Source: a virus. Taken from it: 37,307 nucleotides of DNA. The position numbers and the translations under genes were made by a program. The DNA is taken from the IMG/VR virus record IMGVR_UViG_3300035670_000657, positions 1 to 37,307 of that record; one strand, written 5' to 3'. Below are positions 1 to 37,307 of this stretch, one piece after another. Numbering within the stretch: position 1 is the first letter of the stretch; the number at the start of each line of letters is the position of its first letter. The notes below the pieces were generated by a model. It had not been told where the DNA came from, made no database searches, and was given only the letters and a program-made list of their open reading frames with translations.

Positions 1-127
1 AAGGAAGACAGAAGGCAGGGTCTAGGAAAGGGAAAACAGTTTTACAAAGTTGAACCCCTGTTCGGTCAGCTCATACTCTAGAGTATCATTTGTGTCTTTT
101 ACATAGCCATATTGTTGCAGTCTCTTT
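1..127. repeat. Terminal direct repeat, copy 1 (assembly overlap of a circular genome)
   Basis: These 127 bases are identical to the last 127 bases of the window. A perfect overlap of exactly 127 bp is what a k=127 de Bruijn assembler leaves on a circular contig. It is therefore best read as proof of circularity rather than a biological terminal repeat. It falls inside the 3' part of the small wHTH gene and its downstream region. Confidence 0.9.
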
Positions 128-11616: not shown

Positions 11617-12525
11617 ATGAAACAAAAACTTAAACATGACATCAAATATCTGCCCGTTGACACGCTACACCCTTATAAACACAATGCCCGCACCCACAGC
11701 GGTGAACAGGTCGACAGAATAGCTAGTAGCATTCAGGAATTTGGATTCTTAAACCCCATCCTCATTGATAGCGCAAGTAAAACCATACTAGCTGGCCATG
11801 GGCGGTTATTAGCAGCTAAAAAACTAGGCCTTGAGACCGTGCCTGTGGTGGCATTTAATCACCTCACCGATGCCCAAAGGAAAGCCTATACGCTAGCTGA
11901 TAACAAACTTGCCTTAGATGCTGGCTGGGACTATGAGCTGCTAAAAATAGAACTCGATGAGCTGAAACTAGAAGACTTTGACTTGGATATGATTGGCTTT
12001 GGTGAGTTTGAAACCCAAGTGGATAGCATTTTAAACCCAGGTCACTCTAGCTTAGGCACTCCTGGCACACAAACCACACCACCCATATTTGAGCCTAACC
12101 TTCCTAAAGAATCTCCTTATACTCAAAAGACGAATCGGCCTCTTTATGAGAAGACTCGAGAAGAAAAACCGGCTTTGGAGACGTTGTATTCATTTGAGAA
12201 AACGAAAGAATTATTAGATGAAATAGAGTCTAGTGATCAAGATTTATCAATGCAAGAAAAAGAGTTTCTGAAATTAGCTGCTTATCGTCACACGGTTTTT
12301 AATTTTGAACACATCGCAGAATATTATTGTCATAGTAATAAAAAAGTACAAAAGCTTTTTGAAAACAGTGCTTTAGTGATAGTGGATTTCGATGATGGGA
12401 TAAAAAATGGTTGGATCAAATTATCGAAAACATTAGATGAGATCTATAATGAAGATTTCAAATTGAATGAATTGAAGATAGAAAAAGAAAAAACAGAGGG
12501 TTTATCAGATGACGATGAGTATTAA
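11617..12525 (+). CDS. ParB/Srx-fold protein with C-terminal domain typical of DNA-modification loci
   Basis: The product has 302 residues. Residues ~8-130 form a ParB-N/Srx-like domain: PxxTLHPYxxNARTH, then IASSIQEFGFLNPILID, and the nucleotide/phosphate-binding ILAGHGRLLAAKKLG (GHGR at 60-63), ending with AYxLADNKLAL. This version (GHGR, not GERR) is the one often found with phage DNA methylases and base-modification genes rather than with plasmid partition. Residues ~195-285 form a separate helical domain (EFLKLAAYRHTVFNFEHIAEYY, then SALVIVDFDDGIKNGWIKLS) that I associate with ParB proteins next to TAGT genes; this is from memory. No catalytic methylase motif was seen. It overlaps the glycosyltransferase gene by 17 bp. 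GC content drops sharply inside this gene after about 12180. Confidence 0.7.
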   Translation: MKQKLKHDIKYLPVDTLHPYKHNARTHSGEQVDRIASSIQEFGFLNPILIDSASKTILAGHGRLLAAKKLGLETVPVVAFNHLTDAQRKAYTLADNKLALDAGWDYELLKIELDELKLEDFDLDMIGFGEFETQVDSILNPGHSSLGTPGTQTTPPIFEPNLPKESPYTQKTNRPLYEKTREEKPALETLYSFEKTKELLDEIESSDQDLSMQEKEFLKLAAYRHTVFNFEHIAEYYCHSNKKVQKLFENSALVIVDFDDGIKNGWIKLSKTLDEIYNEDFKLNELKIEKEKTEGLSDDDEY

Positions 12526-13378
12526 AAATTTTGCTGTTTTTATTTTAACGCATGGCCGAGCTTCTAACGTCATCACTTATCAGACTTTGAGAAGACAAGG
12601 TTATACAGGCCTTATTTATCTTTTGGTTGATGATGAAGATAAACAGATAGACGATTATAGGAAGCTTTATGGAAAACAAGTCATTGTTTTTAATAAACAG
12701 AAAGCGATAGATTTCACAGATAGCGGCGATAACTTTCTCAAACGGAATAGCGTTGTTTATGCCCGTAACTATAATTTTGTTATAGCGAAAGAGTTAGGGG
12801 TTGATTATTTTTTACAATTGGATGACGATTATACGTATTTCACACATACTTATGATAATGAAAGAAATTATATAACTTCTAAAAATCGTATAAATTCTTT
12901 AGACAAAGTTTTTAATGCAATGACATTGTTTTTAATTGAGACACAAGCTCATAGTGTAGCGATGAGCCAAGGTGGTGATTTTATTGGTGGTATAGGAACA
13001 GTCGGAAAGAATTATATTTTATATAACCGGTTTTCCCGTAAAGTCATGAATGCCTTTTTTATGAACACTAAAAAACCATTTAAATTTATGGGTCGAATCA
13101 ATGAAGATGTGAATGCTTATGTGAGTTTAGGCAGCACTGGCCATTTGTTTATCACAGTGCCAAGAGTGCGGTTAGAACAACGTGTGACGCAAACCAACCC
13201 CGGCGGTCTGACAGACATCTATAAAGATTTAGGCACTTATGTGAAATCTTTTTATTCTGTGCTTTATTCCCCAAATACAGTTCTTATCACAATGATGGGT
13301 GTTATAAATCCCCGTCTGCATCACAGTGTGAAATGGTCAACTGCTGTTCCAAAGATAATTGATTCAAATTCTCTATAG
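12509..13378 (+). CDS. TET-associated-type glycosyltransferase (TAGT-like), candidate DNA base hypermodification enzyme
   Basis: The product has 289 residues with a GT-A-like N-terminal half: HGRASN (15-20), a Rossmann strand and VDDED (40-44), LYGKQVIVFNK, YARNYNFVIAKELGVDYF and the metal-binding LDDDY (104-108). This order (GR-x-N, VDDxD, F-x-K, ARN, LDDDY) matches the TAGT family described by Iyer and Aravind. In phages that family adds sugars to oxidised 5-methylcytosine. The C-terminal half includes GGDFIGGIGTVGKN and GRINEDVNAYV, as expected for substrate binding. The ribosome site GAGGG lies within the end of the ParB-like gene. The DNA is very AT-rich (20% GC at 12841-12900), unlike the flanking structural genes. 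No TET dioxygenase or C5-methyltransferase gene was recognised elsewhere, so the acceptor base is unknown. Confidence 0.75.
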   Translation: MTMSIKNFAVFILTHGRASNVITYQTLRRQGYTGLIYLLVDDEDKQIDDYRKLYGKQVIVFNKQKAIDFTDSGDNFLKRNSVVYARNYNFVIAKELGVDYFLQLDDDYTYFTHTYDNERNYITSKNRINSLDKVFNAMTLFLIETQAHSVAMSQGGDFIGGIGTVGKNYILYNRFSRKVMNAFFMNTKKPFKFMGRINEDVNAYVSLGSTGHLFITVPRVRLEQRVTQTNPGGLTDIYKDLGTYVKSFYSVLYSPNTVLITMMGVINPRLHHSVKWSTAVPKIIDSNSL

Positions 13379-19923: not shown

Positions 19924-20398
19924 TTACATCCTTTAGTATCCGCACGTTATAAGGTGGCTTATAATTCATGAGGCATGTTTCAATGATATACCCGCACAAT
20001 CTAAAAACATTTTGGTAAATCTCACGGTGCTCAGGGTCCAGTGTTTCAAGCATTTTGCTAATAAAACTAAACAGTTGGGCTCTCACCATGGTGTGCACCA
20101 AAGCCTCGGAACTCAGAGCCTCGACGGACTCGGGCTTGCCCACGCTATCCTGAAATTCCTTGAAATGGATACAAAAGTCCTGAGTGACCATGGCAAGCTC
20201 AAATGGGCTGGGTTTTGTGCCAGCCGGATCTATGGCTTGCCTGGTAAATATGTAAAGGCTCATGCTTGCCACATCTTTCATGGCTTCTCTAGGCAATGTC
20301 TTTTGGATCTCAGATTTTGTCTTGACATACCCGGCATCTTTGGCAAGCACATATTCAAAGTGCCTAAGCAATCCTAACAGGGTATACTGGCATTCCAC
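19913..20398 (-). CDS. Hypothetical helical protein, first gene of the morphogenesis operon
   Basis: The product has 161 residues starting at GTG, with GAGGAATATT as ribosome site. It is mainly helical (LLGLLRHFEYVLAKDAGYV, SLYIFTRQAID, ALVHTMVRAQLFSFISKMLETLDPEHREIYQNVFRLCGYIIETCLMN). No known motif or membrane span was seen. It starts about 25 bp downstream of the predicted transcription start of a strong promoter, so it is the first gene of the leftward late transcript. It could be a packaging or head-assembly accessory protein; that is only a guess. Confidence 0.65.
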   Translation of the reverse strand: MECQYTLLGLLRHFEYVLAKDAGYVKTKSEIQKTLPREAMKDVASMSLYIFTRQAIDPAGTKPSPFELAMVTQDFCIHFKEFQDSVGKPESVEALSSEALVHTMVRAQLFSFISKMLETLDPEHREIYQNVFRLCGYIIETCLMNYKPPYNVRILKDVNGN

Positions 20399-21199: not shown

Positions 21200-21439
21200 C
21201 TATAAAGAGGTTTGCAATGTCTCTATCTGGTCTTCTCCACACACAAATGTGGCTTGGTAATCAAAATCCTCATCAAGATAAGTCTCAATGTATTCCCATG
21301 CATCCTCAAAACTCTCAAATATCATGGGGTCTTGGATATTTGGCCTACCACTCAAATCACCTAGCTCATAAGAATATAAGTCTTTGGTTTTGCCAAGATA
21401 ATCAACATAGGTCTCTTCATTTAGAATCATGTAAGGCAT
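21200..21439 (-). CDS. Small acidic early protein (hypothetical)
   Basis: The product has 79 residues and is strongly acidic (ETYVDYLGKTKDLYSYELGD, then a Glu/Asp helix FEDAWEYIETYLDEDFD). It starts at the ATG at 21439 with GGAGATAAG as ribosome site. Acidic small phage proteins often act as DNA mimics or inhibitors, but nothing specific is recognised here. It lies 47 bp before the next gene of the same strand. Confidence 0.6.
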   Translation of the reverse strand: MPYMILNEETYVDYLGKTKDLYSYELGDLSGRPNIQDPMIFESFEDAWEYIETYLDEDFDYQATFVCGEDQIETLQTSL

Positions 21440-21567: not shown

Positions 21568-21873
21568 TTATTGTGAGTTCAATTTGTATACGTTTGCCGA
21601 TTTCCCATTTGAATCAAATTCTTTGGTTTTAATTAACTTATTGTTTTGAACTAATTTTAAAAGGGCTACTTTCATGTCCATTGCACTGAAATGCTTGTAC
21701 AAAATGTTCCTGCTTGCTCTGTCTTTTATTCGGCCAGCAGCCAACCCATTTGGATTCTTGGTTAAAATATAAAGAATATAGGTCTTTAAATCTTCAAGAG
21801 TTATATGGCTTGCAGAGGTGCTAGTAATCGGTTCATTGTTTGCCTTAGGCGCTTTCTTAGTCTTCATAAGCAT
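21568..21873 (-). CDS. Winged-helix-like regulator candidate
   Basis: Up to 101 residues. After a basic, low-complexity start come helices and a wing typical of a wHTH: ITLEDLKTYILYILTKN, GRIKDRA, LYKHFSAMDMKVALLKLVQNNKLIKTKEF, ending in SANVYKL. It lies directly beside the large TTGTGGATCC repeat region and has a plausible promoter 25 bp upstream, so it may be the repressor or initiator-control protein acting on that region (inference). The start at 21873 or at the internal ATG at 21867 is equally likely. Confidence 0.6.
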   Translation of the reverse strand: MLMKTKKAPKANNEPITSTSASHITLEDLKTYILYILTKNPNGLAAGRIKDRASRNILYKHFSAMDMKVALLKLVQNNKLIKTKEFDSNGKSANVYKLNSQ

Positions 21874-22164: not shown

Positions 22165-22213
22165 CTTGTGGATCCAGATCCACTAAATCCACAAGTTGTG
22201 GATCCGGATCCAC
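22165..22213. repeat. Two adjacent palindromic GTGGATC sites
   Basis: GTGGATC-CA-GATCCAC (22168-22183) and GTGGATCC-GGATCCAC (22198-22213, a 16-bp perfect palindrome) lie 30 bp apart. CTTGTGGAT (22165-22173) also pairs with ATCCACAAG (22187-22195). The core TGTGGAT is the reverse of the DnaA-box core ATCCACA, though the outer bases differ from TTATCCACA. Confidence 0.85.
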
Positions 22214-22296
22214 TGTCTTTAAGGGGGTCAGGGTTATCAATATGGTCTGAAGTGGTCTTATGGTTTTGATATGATTAGCGTATTCGGAAATAAAAG

Positions 22297-22361
22297 TTGT
22301 GGATCCATTATGCTTTCATTGTGGATCCATTATGCTTTCATTATGCTTTCATTGTGGATCC
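22297..22361. repeat. Three TTGTGGATCC direct repeats spaced by 22 and 33 bp
   Basis: TTGTGGATCC starts at 22297, 22319 and 22352. The first two are parts of a perfect 22-bp repeat that continues with ATTATGCTTTCA, and an extra 11-bp copy of that continuation separates the second and third. Spacings are whole multiples of 11 bp, so all three sites face the same side of the DNA helix, as in iterons or cooperative operators. Confidence 0.85.
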
Positions 22362-26571: not shown

Positions 26572-27186
26572 TCAAAGGCCCCAATCTACCTTGAGAATCT
26601 TGGGGTCTAGTTTCCTCAGCCAGTCCACGATATCCCTCATATCTTTTTCTCCAATCACCCCCACACAGCCCGCTGTGCCCGGTGCCGTGGAGCGGTTGTA
26701 GTCCATGTGTATGCCAAATTCCCCACGCCGTTTTTCCTCAGCGCACACGATGGGGATAAACACAGGCCCTAAACCTGCACCATGACTGGCTTTCCAATTG
26801 TCTTTACCGCCAGCCCAGGAGATATCCCACACGGCGTAGGTGCCTTGAGGACAGGGCTCCATGCTGCCAGGCATGTTGCGACCAGCCTTGCGGAAGTGTT
26901 GGGCATAGCCTTGGCCCGTACACACTATCCACTCCCGTACTTCCTTTCCGCCCTCATCAAATAACTCTAGCTTGCACTTGAATGTCCCATCGGCAAACTT
27001 TTCGCTAGTTTTAGAGAGCCTCAGATAGCTATCACCCATACAAAACCCCTTGCCTTCGGCTTGTGTGTATAGACCTTTTAGAAATAAAAAACACATTCTG
27101 ATTATAAAATAAATGATAAAAAGAATGCGCTTTTGTATAGAATCTATTTCAATAAGTGTGTCATAAATGTATTGGCGGTAAGACAT
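26572..27186 (-). CDS. YkuD-like peptidoglycan-active enzyme, possibly membrane-anchored lysis protein
   Basis: The product has 204 residues from the ATG at 27186. The catalytic C-terminal half contains GIHMDYNRSTAPGTAGCVGV (His160, Cys174), matching the His...Gly-Cys signature of YkuD-like L,D-transpeptidases and related peptidoglycan enzymes, though the His-Cys spacing and the 'GTAGC' form differ from the classical motif. The N-terminus (IQKRILFIIYFIIRMCFLFLKGL, 18-40) is a hydrophobic, possibly signal-anchor segment. A second start at 27039 (AAGGGG before the ATG) would give a 155-residue cytosolic form. Both have good ribosome sites, and that of the long form is inside a hairpin. As this genome has no other lysin candidate, this enzyme is the best endolysin guess. 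Confidence 0.6.
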   Translation of the reverse strand: MSYRQYIYDTLIEIDSIQKRILFIIYFIIRMCFLFLKGLYTQAEGKGFCMGDSYLRLSKTSEKFADGTFKCKLELFDEGGKEVREWIVCTGQGYAQHFRKAGRNMPGSMEPCPQGTYAVWDISWAGGKDNWKASHGAGLGPVFIPIVCAEEKRRGEFGIHMDYNRSTAPGTAGCVGVIGEKDMRDIVDWLRKLDPKILKVDWGL

Positions 27187-27193
27187 GGGCACC

Positions 27194-32065: not shown

Positions 32066-32425
32066 TCACTCCGCTTGGATTGTCTTAGCCTCTAGTTTTT
32101 TAGCTGCTGCGATATCGGCTATAGCAAGCCAAAAGCCCTCGGTTAAAAAAGCCCTGCGGTATTTGGGATACCCCTTGCAGTGCAGTGTTTCTGCAAAGTG
32201 ACAGAACCCTTCGAGGATGTAGTTGTTGCTTTCACTGGGGTGGTCTAGGTAGTGCCCGTGCTCATTGATAACGATGGCTGAAGCGTAGCCCTTGCCACGG
32301 ATAAAAAACTGAGCGAGTTGACGGGGCCCAAGCTGATAGGCTTCCTCGGCTTGCATGAGTGACTTGCCGGAGAGAGGCCCTAGCGATAAAGCTGTTGAAG
32401 CTGTTGGCGTTGAAGATGATGCCAT
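32066..32425 (-). CDS. Hypothetical protein, first gene of the fibre/lysis operon
   Basis: The product has 119 residues. A Ser/Thr/Ala-rich start (first ~15 residues) precedes a folded part (LMQAEEAYQLGPRQLAQFFIRGKGYASAIVINEHGHYLDHPSESNNYILEGFCHFAETLHCKGY) and a basic helix at the end. No family recognised. It is divergently placed opposite the packaging operon, with 81 bp between them. Confidence 0.55.
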   Translation of the reverse strand: MASSSTPTASTALSLGPLSGKSLMQAEEAYQLGPRQLAQFFIRGKGYASAIVINEHGHYLDHPSESNNYILEGFCHFAETLHCKGYPKYRRAFLTEGFWLAIADIAAAKKLEAKTIQAE

Positions 32426-32453
32426 GATGTGTGTTAGCCTTTTTAAAGATGAG

Positions 32454-32480
32454 GCCAGTTAGACCAGTTAGACCAGTTAG
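32454..32480. repeat. Three tandem 9-bp repeats in the divergent gap
   Basis: CCAGTTAGA, CCAGTTAGA and CCAGTTAGT follow one another between the fibre/lysis operon and the packaging operon. The spacing of 9 bp does not match a helix turn, so simple slippage is as likely as an operator. No consensus promoter is visible in this gap. Confidence 0.75.
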
Positions 32481-32506
32481 TTTAAAGCTTAAGAATAAAA
32501 ACAATT

Positions 32507-32818
32507 ATGGCTAAGTTTAAAAATATACAACTAGCAGAAAGCCTTTTGATGGGGCTGGGAGCCCTGTTGCACACCGAGATGAGGCACTTGCAAGTCGAAA
32601 GCAAGGAGGGCCCATTGTCTCAGCGGAGCTTTGCTAAGCTGACCCAGCTTGCCACCCATGTGAACCAATATGCCAAAGCCAGCCGTGATTTAGCCGCTGC
32701 TGACACCATAGGCCAGTATTCCGATGAGGAGTTGCAGGATGCACTTAAACTCAGCCTTGGTACTATGCGGAGGCATGGCGTTATGCCTGGTTTAGGGGAG
32801 GGAGACACTGATGAGTGA
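32507..32818 (+). CDS. Small helical protein, first gene of the packaging operon
   Basis: The product has 103 residues, mainly helical (IQLAESLLMGLGALLHTEMRHLQ, RSFAKLTQLATHVNQYAKASRDLAA) with an acidic tail (SDEELQDALKLSLGTM... DTDE). It could be a packaging accessory or a short small-terminase-like protein, but it lacks a visible HTH, so the TerS call is not made. It ends overlapping the next gene (ATGAGTGA). Confidence 0.55.
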   Translation: MAKFKNIQLAESLLMGLGALLHTEMRHLQVESKEGPLSQRSFAKLTQLATHVNQYAKASRDLAAADTIGQYSDEELQDALKLSLGTMRRHGVMPGLGEGDTDE

Positions 32819-33443
32819 GCGTCAGCCAGAGAGAGTTGAGAGAGTCGAAACAATTGACCCCACGGTGAAGCCCTACACCTACACAGACTTTGGCGCCGAG
32901 GGGGACAAGCCTTTTATTTACAGCACTTGGGTGGCTAGCTACGCTGTGAGCCAAACAGCTCGGATGTGTAAGAATGAGAGTGAATACAAAAGGATACAGT
33001 GTGAAATCATCGAGGCTATACTCTCCACCCCATCCACCCAGGTGTATGTCACTCGGCTCAAAGGGGAGCCCGATTCTATTCTGGCTTATGCTGTGATGGA
33101 TTGTATTAGCCGGTGTTTGCACTACACCTACACCAAGTTTAATTATAGAAAGTGTGCATTGGCTCAAAACTTGTGCCTAGGCAAGGGCATGGAATACTAC
33201 TCCCACCACAGGGCTGTGAACCATGCCCAAGCCCAAGTGCAGAGCTTTCCGTATGAGCACCTTGTGCCACACTGGGCTATACACCTGAGATACCACCCAT
33301 ACATCACACTAGACATTGTGAGGAATCATGGCATTAGAATTGGACACCAACACCACACCGAACACAACCAACACAACCAACACAACCAACACAACAACAA
33401 GCCAAGCCAACCAAGCCAAGCCAGCCCCCAAGAGACAGCGTGA
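32811..33443 (+). CDS. GNAT-fold-like protein of the packaging operon
   Basis: The product has 210 residues. The region DKPFIYSTWVASYAV, then YKRIQCEIIEAILSTP, VYVTRLKGEPDSILAYAVMDCISRCLHYTYTKFNYRKCALAQNL matches the pattern of acetyltransferase-fold proteins found next to terminase genes: N-terminal 'FIYSSWxxSY', 'IxGYxVxE', 'LHYxYxKxxYRxxGxAxxL'. A classical acetyl-CoA Q/RxxGxG/A motif is degraded (NYRKCALAQ), so the enzyme may be inactive or act as a structural or DNA-packaging factor. The His/Asn/Gln-rich tail is encoded in a 9-bp tandem repeat that is also read in another frame by the next gene. Confidence 0.6.
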   Translation: MSERQPERVERVETIDPTVKPYTYTDFGAEGDKPFIYSTWVASYAVSQTARMCKNESEYKRIQCEIIEAILSTPSTQVYVTRLKGEPDSILAYAVMDCISRCLHYTYTKFNYRKCALAQNLCLGKGMEYYSHHRAVNHAQAQVQSFPYEHLVPHWAIHLRYHPYITLDIVRNHGIRIGHQHHTEHNQHNQHNQHNNKPSQPSQASPQETA

Positions 33444-33684
33444 CATCAAGTTGAGCCAGCCAGAGATTGGCATCACCATCACCCGGGTTGTGGAGAGTAT
33501 GCTGCTGGCCCAGCCCGTGCAGTTCCATGGCCAGATGCGGACTTATTTTAATCTCAGCGATGGGTTTGTGATGGAGAGGAATGAGTTTGGCAACTTTGAT
33601 ATAAGCCACCCAGCCGTGCCAAATAAATTTTTAGAAATCAGCTTTACTAACATCAGTTGTATCAGGTGGGCCATCCAATTCTAA
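33328..33684 (+). CDS. Hypothetical protein overlapping the GNAT-like gene by 116 bp
   Basis: The product has 118 residues. The N-terminal ~28 residues are Asn/Thr repeats read from the same DNA as the His/Asn/Gln tail of the upstream gene. The rest is a folded-looking sequence with a basic start (APKRQRDIKLSQPEIGITITRVVESMLLAQ) and a beta part (YFNLSDGFVMERNEFGNFDIS, FLEISFTNISCIRW). GAGGAATC before the ATG is a good ribosome site. TerL overlaps its end. No family recognised. Confidence 0.65.
   Translation: MALELDTNTTPNTTNTTNTTNTTTSQANQAKPAPKRQRDIKLSQPEIGITITRVVESMLLAQPVQFHGQMRTYFNLSDGFVMERNEFGNFDISHPAVPNKFLEISFTNISCIRWAIQF
33362..33397. repeat. 9-bp tandem repeat coding in two overlapping frames
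   Basis: ACACAACCA is repeated three times perfectly plus a partial copy. In one frame it encodes His-Asn-Gln units, in the other Asn-Thr-Thr units, at the overlap of two adjacent genes. A GCCAA-rich stretch follows. Repeat slippage could change the lengths of both proteins at once. Confidence 0.85.
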
Positions 33685-35135
33685 GCACAAGCACAAGCAC
33701 ACTCAGCACAAGCACACTGACAGACTACCAAAAAAAACTACTCCTAGAACACCACCGCAGAACCAAGGTTGGCAAGAGTGGGCAGACCCAAGCGGCTCAT
33801 GTGTTCCAAGGTTTGTTTGAGCCACAGATGCGGTTCATTGATTCCCCCCATGAGCTAGCCAGTGCCTGCTGCACACGGCGTGCGGGCAAGTCCCATGCCT
33901 GTGCTGTGGGGCTAGTGCACAAGGCTCTCTCCACCCCGCTAGCCCAAACCCTTTACATTGGGCTCACACGGCAATCAGCTAAGAACATCATGCAGCCTAG
34001 CATAGAAAAGCTGCTGAAGGCCCACGCTATCCCCCATGAGTACTACAAGGCTGAGCTGAGGTTTGTGCTAGGCAATGGCAGCCACATTGTGCTCACAGGG
34101 GCTGGGGACAGTTCAAGAGATATCCAAAAGCTCTTGGGTGTGGCCTATGACTTGGTGGTCATTGATGAGGCCCAGAGCTTCCCAGCCCATCTTAAAGAGC
34201 TGATATACGATGTGCTGCTCATCACCATTGCAGAGAAGCGGGGCAAGATACGGGTCATTGGCACACCGGGTATTGTGGCCACGGGGTTTTTTTATGACAT
34301 CGCTACAGGTGCGGAAACAAGCCGGCATTGGGACACCCACCACTGGAGCTGGATGGACAATAAGGCGGTTAGAGACTTGATTGAGGAGCAGATAGAGAGG
34401 ATGGTGACAGCCAACCCTCTCGTCACGGAAACACCGGCCTACAGGCGCAACTATGAAGGGGAGTGGGTCGCTGATGCGGATAACCTGGTCTACCGTTATT
34501 CTGTTGGCCGCAATGGCCCTAGCCGAGGTTCTGATCAAGGTGTGGGTTCTGTGGCACTTGAGCACTATTGTTTGGGCGTTGACCTTGGGTTTAAGGATGC
34601 CACTGCTTTTGTTCTTATTGGCTGGGGGGCATCTTCTCCCAATGCCTATATTGTCAGTAGTTTTAAAAAGTCTGGGATGATCCCAAGCGAGATAGCCAAA
34701 GTCATACAGGACTTCCACAATAAGTATCCGTCCATCATTAAGACCGTGGTCGATGAGGGTGGGCTAGGCAAGTCGATTGCTGAGGAGTGGAGACGGCGGT
34801 ACTTGCTGGCTGTGACACCAGCTAAGAAGACAGACAAGAGGCTCTTTATTGATGAAATAAACGGCATGTTTATTGAGGGTAGGATACAGCTCTTACCTGG
34901 CAATGAAGAGCTGATTGATGAACTCAAAAGCCTTGTGTGGCTGGATGGTGAGAGGAAGCATGAGAACCCAGCATGTGATAACCATTTAACAGACTCATGC
35001 TTATATGCCCTCCGTGAGGCTAGGGCCTATCTTTACACCCCACCTGTGCCCGAGCCTGATCCTATCAAAGCACAAGAGGAGGCTTTGTTGAGGGAGCATG
35101 AACAGAGGGTTCTCGAGAGAGAGAGCTGGATTTGA
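33657..35135 (+). CDS. terL: Terminase large subunit (TerL)
   Basis: The product has 492 residues. Walker A is CTRRAGKS (72-79, Arg-containing as usual in TerL), Walker B is LVVIDEA (166-172), and the coupling segment IGTPG (~201-205) follows. The C-terminal nuclease domain shows CLGVDLGFKDATAF (Asp309), TVVDEGGLGK (Asp366) and CDNHLTDSCLYAL (Asp441/Asp446). TerL packages DNA into proheads using ATP and cuts the concatemer. The start is uncertain: TTG at 33657 or GTG at 33666, both inside the upstream gene. The first ~22 residues come from an AGCACA-type repeat. It is on the opposite strand to the portal and capsid genes. Confidence 0.9.
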   Translation: MYQVGHPILSTSTSTLSTSTLTDYQKKLLLEHHRRTKVGKSGQTQAAHVFQGLFEPQMRFIDSPHELASACCTRRAGKSHACAVGLVHKALSTPLAQTLYIGLTRQSAKNIMQPSIEKLLKAHAIPHEYYKAELRFVLGNGSHIVLTGAGDSSRDIQKLLGVAYDLVVIDEAQSFPAHLKELIYDVLLITIAEKRGKIRVIGTPGIVATGFFYDIATGAETSRHWDTHHWSWMDNKAVRDLIEEQIERMVTANPLVTETPAYRRNYEGEWVADADNLVYRYSVGRNGPSRGSDQGVGSVALEHYCLGVDLGFKDATAFVLIGWGASSPNAYIVSSFKKSGMIPSEIAKVIQDFHNKYPSIIKTVVDEGGLGKSIAEEWRRRYLLAVTPAKKTDKRLFIDEINGMFIEGRIQLLPGNEELIDELKSLVWLDGERKHENPACDNHLTDSCLYALREARAYLYTPPVPEPDPIKAQEEALLREHEQRVLERESWI

Positions 35136-35136
35136 A

Positions 35137-35286
35137 TCATTTTTTTTGAAGTACAATCTTTTCAAATTTAAATCCGTTATTAATTATTCCTATTTTTTCA
35201 TTTGGCTTTAAATTGATTTTGAACTCATCTTTTTCTGAAGGATAGAAAACACCATCTTTTATTTTCTTCTTTTTCTTCTTTTTCAT
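35137..35286 (-). CDS. Missed 49-residue basic gene coupled to the rep-like gene
   Basis: An open frame of 49 codons starts at the ATG whose last bases form the TGA stop of the rep-like gene (ATGA overlap) and ends at a TGA two bases after the TerL stop on the opposite strand. The product begins with seven Lys in a row, then a beta-rich part (DGVFYPSEKDEFKINL, KIGIINNGFKFEKIVLQKK). Tight coupling and a plausible beta-sheet body support a real gene, perhaps a small DNA-binding or replication-control protein. The convergent TerL gap contains no other gene. Confidence 0.6.
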   Translation of the reverse strand: MKKKKKKKIKDGVFYPSEKDEFKINLKPNEKIGIINNGFKFEKIVLQKK

Positions 35287-36632
35287 TTGATGACTCTTAA
35301 GACAGTTTTGTTGTGATTAGCTGGAGGCATTTTATAGAAGTGGAATGAGACATCATTGTGATGGCTTTCTTGCGCCAAATAGCCTTTGTCCTTAAGAGAC
35401 TTCATGGTTCTTTTAATCTTTGTCACAAATTTCCGTTCAGTTTCCATACTCCACACCTTCCCCGTGAGGTTTTGCATGAGGTCCCATTGTTTAATCCTCA
35501 GCGCCTCGTGGAATCCGTACTTGTGAGAATCCAAATACATGACAAGCCTAAACTCCCACTGGTCCAAGCCGTTAATGAAAGCCATGTTCGTGTGAGAAAA
35601 CCTACCCCCAACCCAACTGTCTAAAATGGCAAGATTAAATCTCATGTAAAGTTCTTTTTGTCTTAGACCTGATTCTGTATCAAGAATTTTTCCATCAAAT
35701 GGCTTTAACCATTTGTATTCATCGCTTGGCTCAAACTTGATGTCGCAATTTCCAATGCGATTCAGAGAACGGTTTATCATTTCAAAAGTGACGGGGTATA
35801 TTTTTTTCGACGTGATTCCTAATGCTCTGGCAATCAAACGGACATCAAGTCCCCACACATAAGGCTTATCTTTAACGCTATAGTTTTGCGCTGCCACGAG
35901 ATAGGCAGCACACAAAACACGAGCATCATTCATGCACAGGTGAGTTCCGGTTAACGCATAGGTCCCCTCCCGTGTTTTTAGCACATCGGGCGCATCCCTC
36001 ATCTTATCAATAACAACCCCATCTTTAATTTCAGTTAAGGATTTGCGCTCAGCTTTTGATATGACTTGAAAAATGGGAGAAACAGAAAGAACGGTAAAAT
36101 TAAACGTGTCATTTGGCATCGAGTTCTTTTTGGGAAGCATTTTAAATCTCACCTGACCTTTTAGAACAGAACTTTTAAATGCCTCGCCAGTCAAAGCAGA
36201 TTTAGCGGGCATCTTCTCCGCATCTAGTGGAGGTGGAGTTTTTATTAAATTCTCAATTGGCTTGTCAATAAATTTTGTATCAAAGGTCTTGTTGGTATCA
36301 TCGTGATTTTCTGTGACTGTGATTTCGATGTTTTGGGTGAGCTTGGCTGGTATATGTTCTTGCAAGTCGGTTAATTTTAATTTTTCCAAATATTTAGATA
36401 GCAGCTTATCAGGGCGTTTTGCCTTTAATACAACTTTGAGCCCGTCGATTGCTTCATCATAATCTTGTGCAGTTCTTGGGATACGTCCCTGGGTTATTGA
36501 TATGTGCAGGTTGACAAGAGCTTTCCAGTCTTCGCAAGTGATTGATTTTAGCTGGTCTTCTGTGACATCAAAATCTGCGGCGCAATAAACATACTTGACA
36601 GGGGTAACAAGAGGCTTTAGATTTCTATACAT
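35283..36632 (-). CDS. Plasmid-type replication initiator candidate (Rep)
   Basis: The product has 449 residues. The N-terminal ~150 residues are helical and charged. The C-terminal half looks like two winged-helix units as in iteron-plasmid initiators: first HLCMNDARVLCAAYLVAAQ (231-249), GLDVRLIARALGITSKK and VTFEMINRSLNRIG (261-294); then AFINGLDQWEFRLVMYLDSH (351-370), LRIKQWDLMQNLTG and KIKRTMKSLKDKGYL (~415-429). The layout 'D-A-R-V-L-x-A-Y ... L-D-x-R-x-I-A-R-A-L-G' resembles TrfA/RepA-type proteins; this is from pattern only. The iteron-like array lies about 370-480 bp upstream on the same strand. The weak ribosome site (TTGGAACTT) and a terminator-like hairpin 22 bp before the start suggest controlled expression. 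A transcription regulator remains possible. Confidence 0.6.
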   Translation of the reverse strand: MYRNLKPLVTPVKYVYCAADFDVTEDQLKSITCEDWKALVNLHISITQGRIPRTAQDYDEAIDGLKVVLKAKRPDKLLSKYLEKLKLTDLQEHIPAKLTQNIEITVTENHDDTNKTFDTKFIDKPIENLIKTPPPLDAEKMPAKSALTGEAFKSSVLKGQVRFKMLPKKNSMPNDTFNFTVLSVSPIFQVISKAERKSLTEIKDGVVIDKMRDAPDVLKTREGTYALTGTHLCMNDARVLCAAYLVAAQNYSVKDKPYVWGLDVRLIARALGITSKKIYPVTFEMINRSLNRIGNCDIKFEPSDEYKWLKPFDGKILDTESGLRQKELYMRFNLAILDSWVGGRFSHTNMAFINGLDQWEFRLVMYLDSHKYGFHEALRIKQWDLMQNLTGKVWSMETERKFVTKIKRTMKSLKDKGYLAQESHHNDVSFHFYKMPPANHNKTVLRVIK

Positions 36633-36653
36633 TCAAGTTCCAAATTGAATATT

Positions 36654-36680
36654 AAAAGGGTGGATTAGGACCACCCTTTT
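36654..36680 (-). terminator. Terminator- or attenuator-like hairpin just upstream of the rep-like gene
   Basis: AAAAGGGTGG (36654-36663) and CCACCCTTTT (36671-36680) pair perfectly around a 7-base loop, flanked by A- and T-runs on both sides, so it could terminate transcription in either direction. It ends 22 bp before the rep start codon on the minus strand. It could therefore attenuate rep transcription or stop read-through from the origin side. Confidence 0.65.
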
Positions 36681-37000
36681 TTCATATCATATAAAATTCA
36701 ATTCTCAAACTTCCCTATCTAGACCTCAAAACCACACCTTCGAAACACCTGTGACTCCTAAAGGGCTTGCCCCTGAGCTGTGACTTTTAAACAAGCACTG
36801 GCTGTTTGGCTGTTGGCTGTTTGTATTAATGTATTAACAAAAAATTTATTTATATGGATTTCTGTTTTAGGCGTTAGCCTGTAGTATAGAAAGCAGTATG
36901 AATAAGTAGTATAAGTAAGCAGTATAGAGATTATGGTAAGCAACATAACTAATTAAATCCTTTGATTAAAATCGTATTTTTGGCCAGGCGGCCATGTCGC

Positions 37001-37108
37001 ATTGATCTACCTTTGATGTCATATTGATCTACCTTTGATGTCATATGGATCATCTTTTCAAGTCGCATTAGTAACCGCCAGGGTTACATTGATCTTGGCC
37101 CATGTCAC
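37001..37108. repeat. Iteron-like array of 21-22-bp units
   Basis: Five units follow head to tail: two identical 22-bp units beginning ATTGATCTACC and ending TGATGTCAT (37001-37022, 37023-37044), then degenerate units at 37045-37066 (ATGGATC...AAGTCGC), 37067-37087 (ATTAGTAACC...) and 37088-37108 (ATTGATCTTGG...ATGTCAC). The segment just before (36979-37000) ends in ATGTCGC and may be a half unit. Four units contain GATC. Length and spacing are those of plasmid iterons bound by Rep proteins. Confidence 0.75.
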
Positions 37109-37128
37109 ATCAATCACCCGGGATTCAT

Positions 37129-37180
37129 GGGAGAGGGGGTTTTGGTTTTGGGGATAGGGGGTGTTTTGGGAGTAGGGGGG
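37129..37180 (+). other. G-rich tract with G-quadruplex potential beside the iterons
   Basis: Runs of 3 to 6 G are separated by short loops: GGGG-ATA-GGGGG-TGTTTT-GGG-AGTA-GGGGGG at 37150-37180 fits the G3+ with 1-7-base-loop rule, with two further G runs at 37129-37139. It lies directly between the iterons and the small wHTH gene. A role in replication start or strand asymmetry is possible but untested. Confidence 0.6.
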
Positions 37181-37307
37181 AAGGAAGACAGAAGGCAGGG
37201 TCTAGGAAAGGGAAAACAGTTTTACAAAGTTGAACCCCTGTTCGGTCAGCTCATACTCTAGAGTATCATTTGTGTCTTTTACATAGCCATATTGTTGCAG
37301 TCTCTTT
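37181..37307. repeat. Terminal direct repeat, copy 2 (same as bases 1-127)
   Basis: Exact copy of the first 127 bases, including the C-terminal part of the small wHTH gene. It should be removed when the genome is circularised, leaving 37,180 bp. It is not an extra gene copy. Confidence 0.9.

Follow-up and report, generated by a model that had tools for sequence, protein, structure and literature searches.

Can a row of short direct repeats upstream of an initiator-like gene be a plasmid-type origin in a tailed phage, and could such a phage live as a plasmid? Both had been suggested in an earlier note on this DNA, and in this work we have followed them up in the window, by which we mean the whole analysed stretch of 37,307 bases. 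Positions 1-127 of the window and positions 37181-37307 are identical over all 127 bases, and this terminal identity, an assembly overlap, shows that the record is complete and circular, with a length of 37,180 bp. For the same reason the iteron array does not lie at the end of the genome; on the circle it is found between an ORF of 155 residues and an ORF of 449 residues. The window carries genes for terminase, portal, capsid and an SU10-type adaptor and also encodes a Sak4-like annealing protein, a DUF669 protein, a VRR nuclease and a primase/helicase-like protein, a gene content which is that of a tailed, podovirus-like phage. A protein with a YkuD (L,D-transpeptidase) domain is encoded at 26572-27192 and is common to the window and two other phages, G001 and G039. 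We also noticed that the terminase block (32066-35135) is inverted relative to its neighbours when compared with G001 and G003 (L005 2263-5208), with a breakpoint that adjoins the replicon. The features of the locus are as follows.

22-489 (equal to 37202-37669), - strand: 155-residue ORF, possibly a winged-helix regulator, located on the circle upstream of the origin
35283-36632, - strand: 449-residue two-winged-helix, TrfA-like proposed Rep, on the basis of its G039 homologue, the TrfA profile match and the C-terminal fold
36654-36680, no strand assigned: hairpin with a T-run between the Rep start and the origin, perfect 10-bp arms, possible + strand terminator
36799-36823, + strand: three GGCTGTT copies, a motif found in the Rep region of G001 as well
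36820-36980, no strand assigned: AT-rich tract between the iterons and the Rep start, proposed DNA-unwinding element
36994-37124, no strand assigned: iteron array with a 22-bp period and the core ATGTC(A/G)(T/C)ATTGATCT, three clear and two or three degenerate units
37128-37180, + strand: G-tract, quadruplex-capable (it fits the G-quadruplex pattern), of doubtful relevance
37181-37307, no strand assigned: assembly overlap, exact copy of window 1-127 by end-to-end identity

The repeats and the elements beside them

The array had been described as five head-to-tail units of 21-22 bp with two perfect copies. The spacing is as described, since the units start at 36994, 37016, 37038, 37060, 37081/82 and 37102 at intervals of 21-22 bp, but only three of the units are strong and the others are degenerate. 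Read from 37001, two consecutive 22-mers are identical (ATTGATCTACCTTTGATGTCAT), which bears out the perfect copies; in the register from 36994 these two units match at 20 of 22 positions, the third unit at 17 of 22 and the fourth at 10 of 22, and the fifth retains mainly the core CATTGATCT. At a lag of 22 the array matches itself at 47 of 66 positions, whereas none of 1000 dinucleotide shuffles of this region scored above 35 and 60 whole-genome shuffles reached 37 at most. The array thus stands above every shuffle, and it outranks all other tandem signals of the genome. No perfect DnaA box (TTATCCACA, a consensus which may not be that of the host) occurs in the whole genome, and with up to one mismatch there is none near the array, the nearest being at 34475 within the terminase gene. 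Many iteron plasmids do have DnaA boxes.

The AT-rich stretch claimed for this locus was confirmed: A+T reaches 87.5% over 40 bp at 36820, a value attained by only 0.04% of the 40-bp segments of the genome, and the AT-rich region expected beside the iterons of such a replicon is therefore present. The G-quadruplex-capable tract is also there, but it is not statistically exceptional, with three such motifs in the genome against about one expected per shuffled genome. Because this is near chance frequency and the tract is missing from the origin of G039, it adds little, and we set it aside as an origin element. The hairpin at 36654-36680 was missing from the list of a consensus terminator scan. 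As for the 155-residue ORF, its comparison with HTH_45 gave E 0.12, below the cut-off, and a relationship to RepL was discarded after a profile comparison without signal. Elsewhere in the window, at 22166-22361 and downstream of the primase/helicase-like gene, we found five copies of TTGTGGATC, partly spaced by 22 bp or 33 bp and partly palindromic, which may form a second origin or serve in regulation. An ORF of 101 residues near these repeats (21568-21873) looks by eye like a small winged-helix protein and gave no match to TrfA, RepL or RepE.

The 449-residue protein

Direct searches with the 449-residue protein returned nothing from Pfam, NCBIfam, PHROGs, PDB, plasmids, phages, or viral or genome contigs, and so no match to a family with a function other than replication was found. 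The Pfam TrfA model PF07042 did not match it at E up to 1, nor its C-terminal half at E up to 10, and a profile built from the single sequence was at noise level against TrfA. When the profile was built from this protein and its homologue in G039, comparison with 11 plasmid TrfA proteins gave a score of 42.3 over 213 columns. The decoys remained well apart: the best of 58 other real protein pairs reached 20.3 and the best of 100 column shuffles 24.1, and reversing the profile gave 14.8. Omitting subsets of the TrfA proteins gave scores of 30 to 42, never down to the level of the decoys. Homology to TrfA is seen by profile-profile comparison, at about 16% identity of the two-sequence family to R751 TrfA, and not by the curated Pfam cut-off. 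No further family member was found with the two-sequence profile in 41 other viral records, and the family as found has two members.

Folding of the single sequence gave a mean pLDDT of 31, and in an AlphaFold model from the two-sequence alignment confidence was high for the C-terminal winged helix alone, where pLDDT was about 83-87. In structural superposition the best matches of this modelled domain, filling the first 36 rows, are pPS10 RepA, F RepE and R6K Pi, with Z of 6-7.9 and thus below 8. Many of these rows repeat the same protein, and we therefore take the superposition as support that falls short of proof. With Foldseek alone, no match had an E below 0.15. The N-terminal winged helix is predicted from the TrfA alignment. 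The proposal of a two-winged-helix, initiator-like protein was thus supported by the TrfA profile match together with the similarity to RepE, RepA and Pi.

Related phages

The homologue was reached by way of the portal protein, which led to a sister phage, G001, and a search with the RepL of G001 then led to G039. In this contig of 40 kb a protein with about 31% identity to the 449-residue protein (E 3.4e-33) is encoded between the DUF669 and VRR-nuclease genes, inside the replication-recombination module. Upstream of its gene there are, in order, a hairpin (L097 4544-4573, at the place corresponding to that in the window and here included in the terminator scan's list), an AT-rich tract (L097 4710-4830, again in the same place) and seven 22-bp repeats, TCATACACAGGAAACACGTTTC, which are nearly identical and have start-to-start spacings of 22/33/22/33/22/45. 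Several in-phase direct repeats adjoin the initiator gene in both phages, as in an iteron replicon, and the elements have the same order and a different iteron sequence, which is expected if an initiator and its sites co-evolve. G039 differs from the window in its terminase and portal, it has a tape-measure protein and its structural genes are of the siphovirus type; common to both are Sak4, DUF669, the VRR nuclease, the L,D-transpeptidase and fibre genes. The strongest reason to think that the protein and the repeats function together is that they occur side by side in these two backgrounds. G039 also has a RepL (L098:4954-5562) which is 59% identical to that of G001, so that two plasmid-type initiators are present in one phage.

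At the corresponding gene junction G001 encodes a protein of 201 residues resembling plasmid RepL (tblastn E 4e-9), and it has a second short RepL-like ORF which is barely over the Pfam cut-off. The ORF at this junction in G003 (365 residues) matched no initiator set. We also observed that G001 has its SU10-type adaptor gene outside the capsid operon, in a displaced position flanked by the arms of an inverted repeat (20148-20369 and 21218-21437; L005 148-369 and 1218-1437) of roughly 220 bp which is rich in GGCTGTT.

Replication and lifestyle

From the homologue with its own iterons, the TrfA profile match and the plasmid-initiator fold, we conclude that the module is very probably an iteron/TrfA-like replicon in a tailed phage with a 37,180-bp circle, and the plasmid-type origin and initiator that had been proposed have gained support from each of these. 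The array that exceeds all shuffles and the plasmid-type RepL initiators of G001 at the equivalent junction also speak for it, whereas the failure of the Pfam TrfA model to detect the protein, a Z below 8, the lack of a DnaA box, a family of two members and the weakness of half of the window repeats speak against it. In the model that we propose, the 449-residue Rep would bind the 22-bp direct repeats, all of them on one face of the helix, and the AT-rich tract nearby would melt. Rep may then recruit the host helicase and polymerase, giving theta replication of the circle from this origin, and the hairpin that separates the Rep start from the origin probably shields the latter from transcription on the terminase side.

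Is it possible that the repeats are operators only, serving autoregulation of rep or the 155-residue protein, and that the origin lies elsewhere, for example at 22166-22361? Iteron plasmids commonly have repeat operators ahead of rep, and the phage genome does contain that second repeat cluster, but in-phase 22-bp direct repeats with an AT-rich tract, found in two phage backgrounds, are the anatomy of an origin, and we regard a purely regulatory role as improbable.

More questions are raised by what an iteron/TrfA-like replicon would do for the phage. It could keep the circular genome as an episome in lysogeny, or it could start phage DNA synthesis during infection with no plasmid stage, as O does at ori-lambda. 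We give these two readings about equal weight, each being a serious possibility that stops short of probable. The episome, for which P1 and N15 are precedents, would agree with the plasmid-type nature of both the TrfA-like and the RepL initiators. It would also agree with the absence of tyrosine integrase (PF00589) and serine recombinase (PF00239) from the complete genome in the window and from G001, G003 and G039 (controls were detected). The earlier claim that there is no integrase therefore holds for these families, and a hidden recombinase was looked for and not found in the families searched, others of the recombinase and transposase kind being covered through PHROGs on the scanned ORFs only. 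An integrase does occur in two more distant relatives, G030 and G031, so the wider group includes temperate life. The window thus has a complete phage genome with a plasmid-type replication gene and, for the families searched, no machinery for chromosomal integration, but a partition or addiction system was not found. ParA (PF13614) was missing from the window, G001, G003 and G039, with controls detected, nor did the window show a recognisable addiction module or lysogeny repressor. For G001, G003 and G039 the absence of integrase and ParA is weaker evidence because these are not shown to be complete. Some phage-plasmids have no partition or addiction system. A ParB-like gene was found in the window:

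11617-12525: ParB-like protein, beside a TET-associated glycosyltransferase (the two together at 11617-13378)

It is 68% identical to its counterpart in G003. Its PHROGs group is also linked to methyltransferases, and for this reason we do not class it among partition genes; a role as a partition protein is the less likely one, given that there is no ParA and that it resembles the ParB-like proteins of phage DNA modification, and its pairing with the glycosyltransferase suggests DNA base modification. This too speaks against the episome, as does the lack of a match to the element among 72,556 plasmids and in the genome collection, where the searches were sensitive to close relatives only.

The lytic reading agrees with the place of the G039 Rep gene within the replication-recombination module. 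As the window has no recognised DNA polymerase, the phage would depend on an initiator to recruit the host replisome. The textbook parallel is phage lambda, in which O and ori-lambda, an iteron origin beside an A+T-rich region, are used lytically (PMC5043065). On the other hand, the cluster at 22166-22361 beside the primase/helicase-like gene could be a lytic origin, which would free the Rep origin, and the two initiators of G039, RepL and the TrfA-like Rep, would agree with tasks being divided as in P1. Because ParA is absent and lambda uses such an origin lytically, we keep the plasmid stage as a hypothesis; the circular assembly alone does not show plasmid maintenance. An episomal lifestyle is plausible and the phage is a candidate phage-plasmid. 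Perhaps the TrfA-related family with its 22-bp iterons is a transferable replication cassette of tailed phages, swappable with RepL at a single genomic junction, which permits these phages, lacking an integrase, episomal lysogeny without a partition system, an idea that we consider rather unlikely.

Comparison with known systems

What is new here is a predicted TrfA-like initiator with an iteron origin in a complete circular phage genome, overlooked by current family models. Two different tailed phages have in common an initiator family unrecognised by the curated libraries searched, and each has its own iterons. If confirmed, this would mean that surveys for phage-plasmids overlook such genomes when they depend on known Rep models, and that the window and G039 are a natural case of co-evolution of initiator and iterons in viruses. 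Earlier metagenomic candidates for phage-plasmids were named from ParA/ParB and addiction genes (PMC4490671), the very features which are absent here.

The closest likeness is to TrfA/oriV of the IncP plasmids (RK2, R751; PF07042), with an initiator alignment of 213 columns that covers both domains and with direct in-phase iterons adjoined by an AT-rich tract. Unlike TrfA, however, the window protein goes undetected by the TrfA model and has about 16% identity to R751 TrfA, no DnaA box was found with its array, and it belongs to a phage and not to a conjugative plasmid. The Rep_3-type initiators (pPS10 RepA, F RepE, R6K Pi) resemble it in the modelled C-terminal winged helix (Z 6-7.9), although there is no sequence match to F RepE and one domain is confidently modelled. 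With lambda O and ori-lambda the window has in common an A+T-rich region beside the iterons of a phage initiator, binding being predicted in the window; in lambda the iterons are inverted repeats, to which O binds as a dimer, whereas those of the window are direct repeats upstream of rep. Integrase-less mycobacteriophages have replaced integration by repA and parABS and live as plasmids (PMC7157519). Compared with these phages and with P1, lysogeny is hypothetical in the window and no ParA-ParB partition system was recognised in it, but like them it combines a plasmid-type initiator in a phage with the lack of an integrase.
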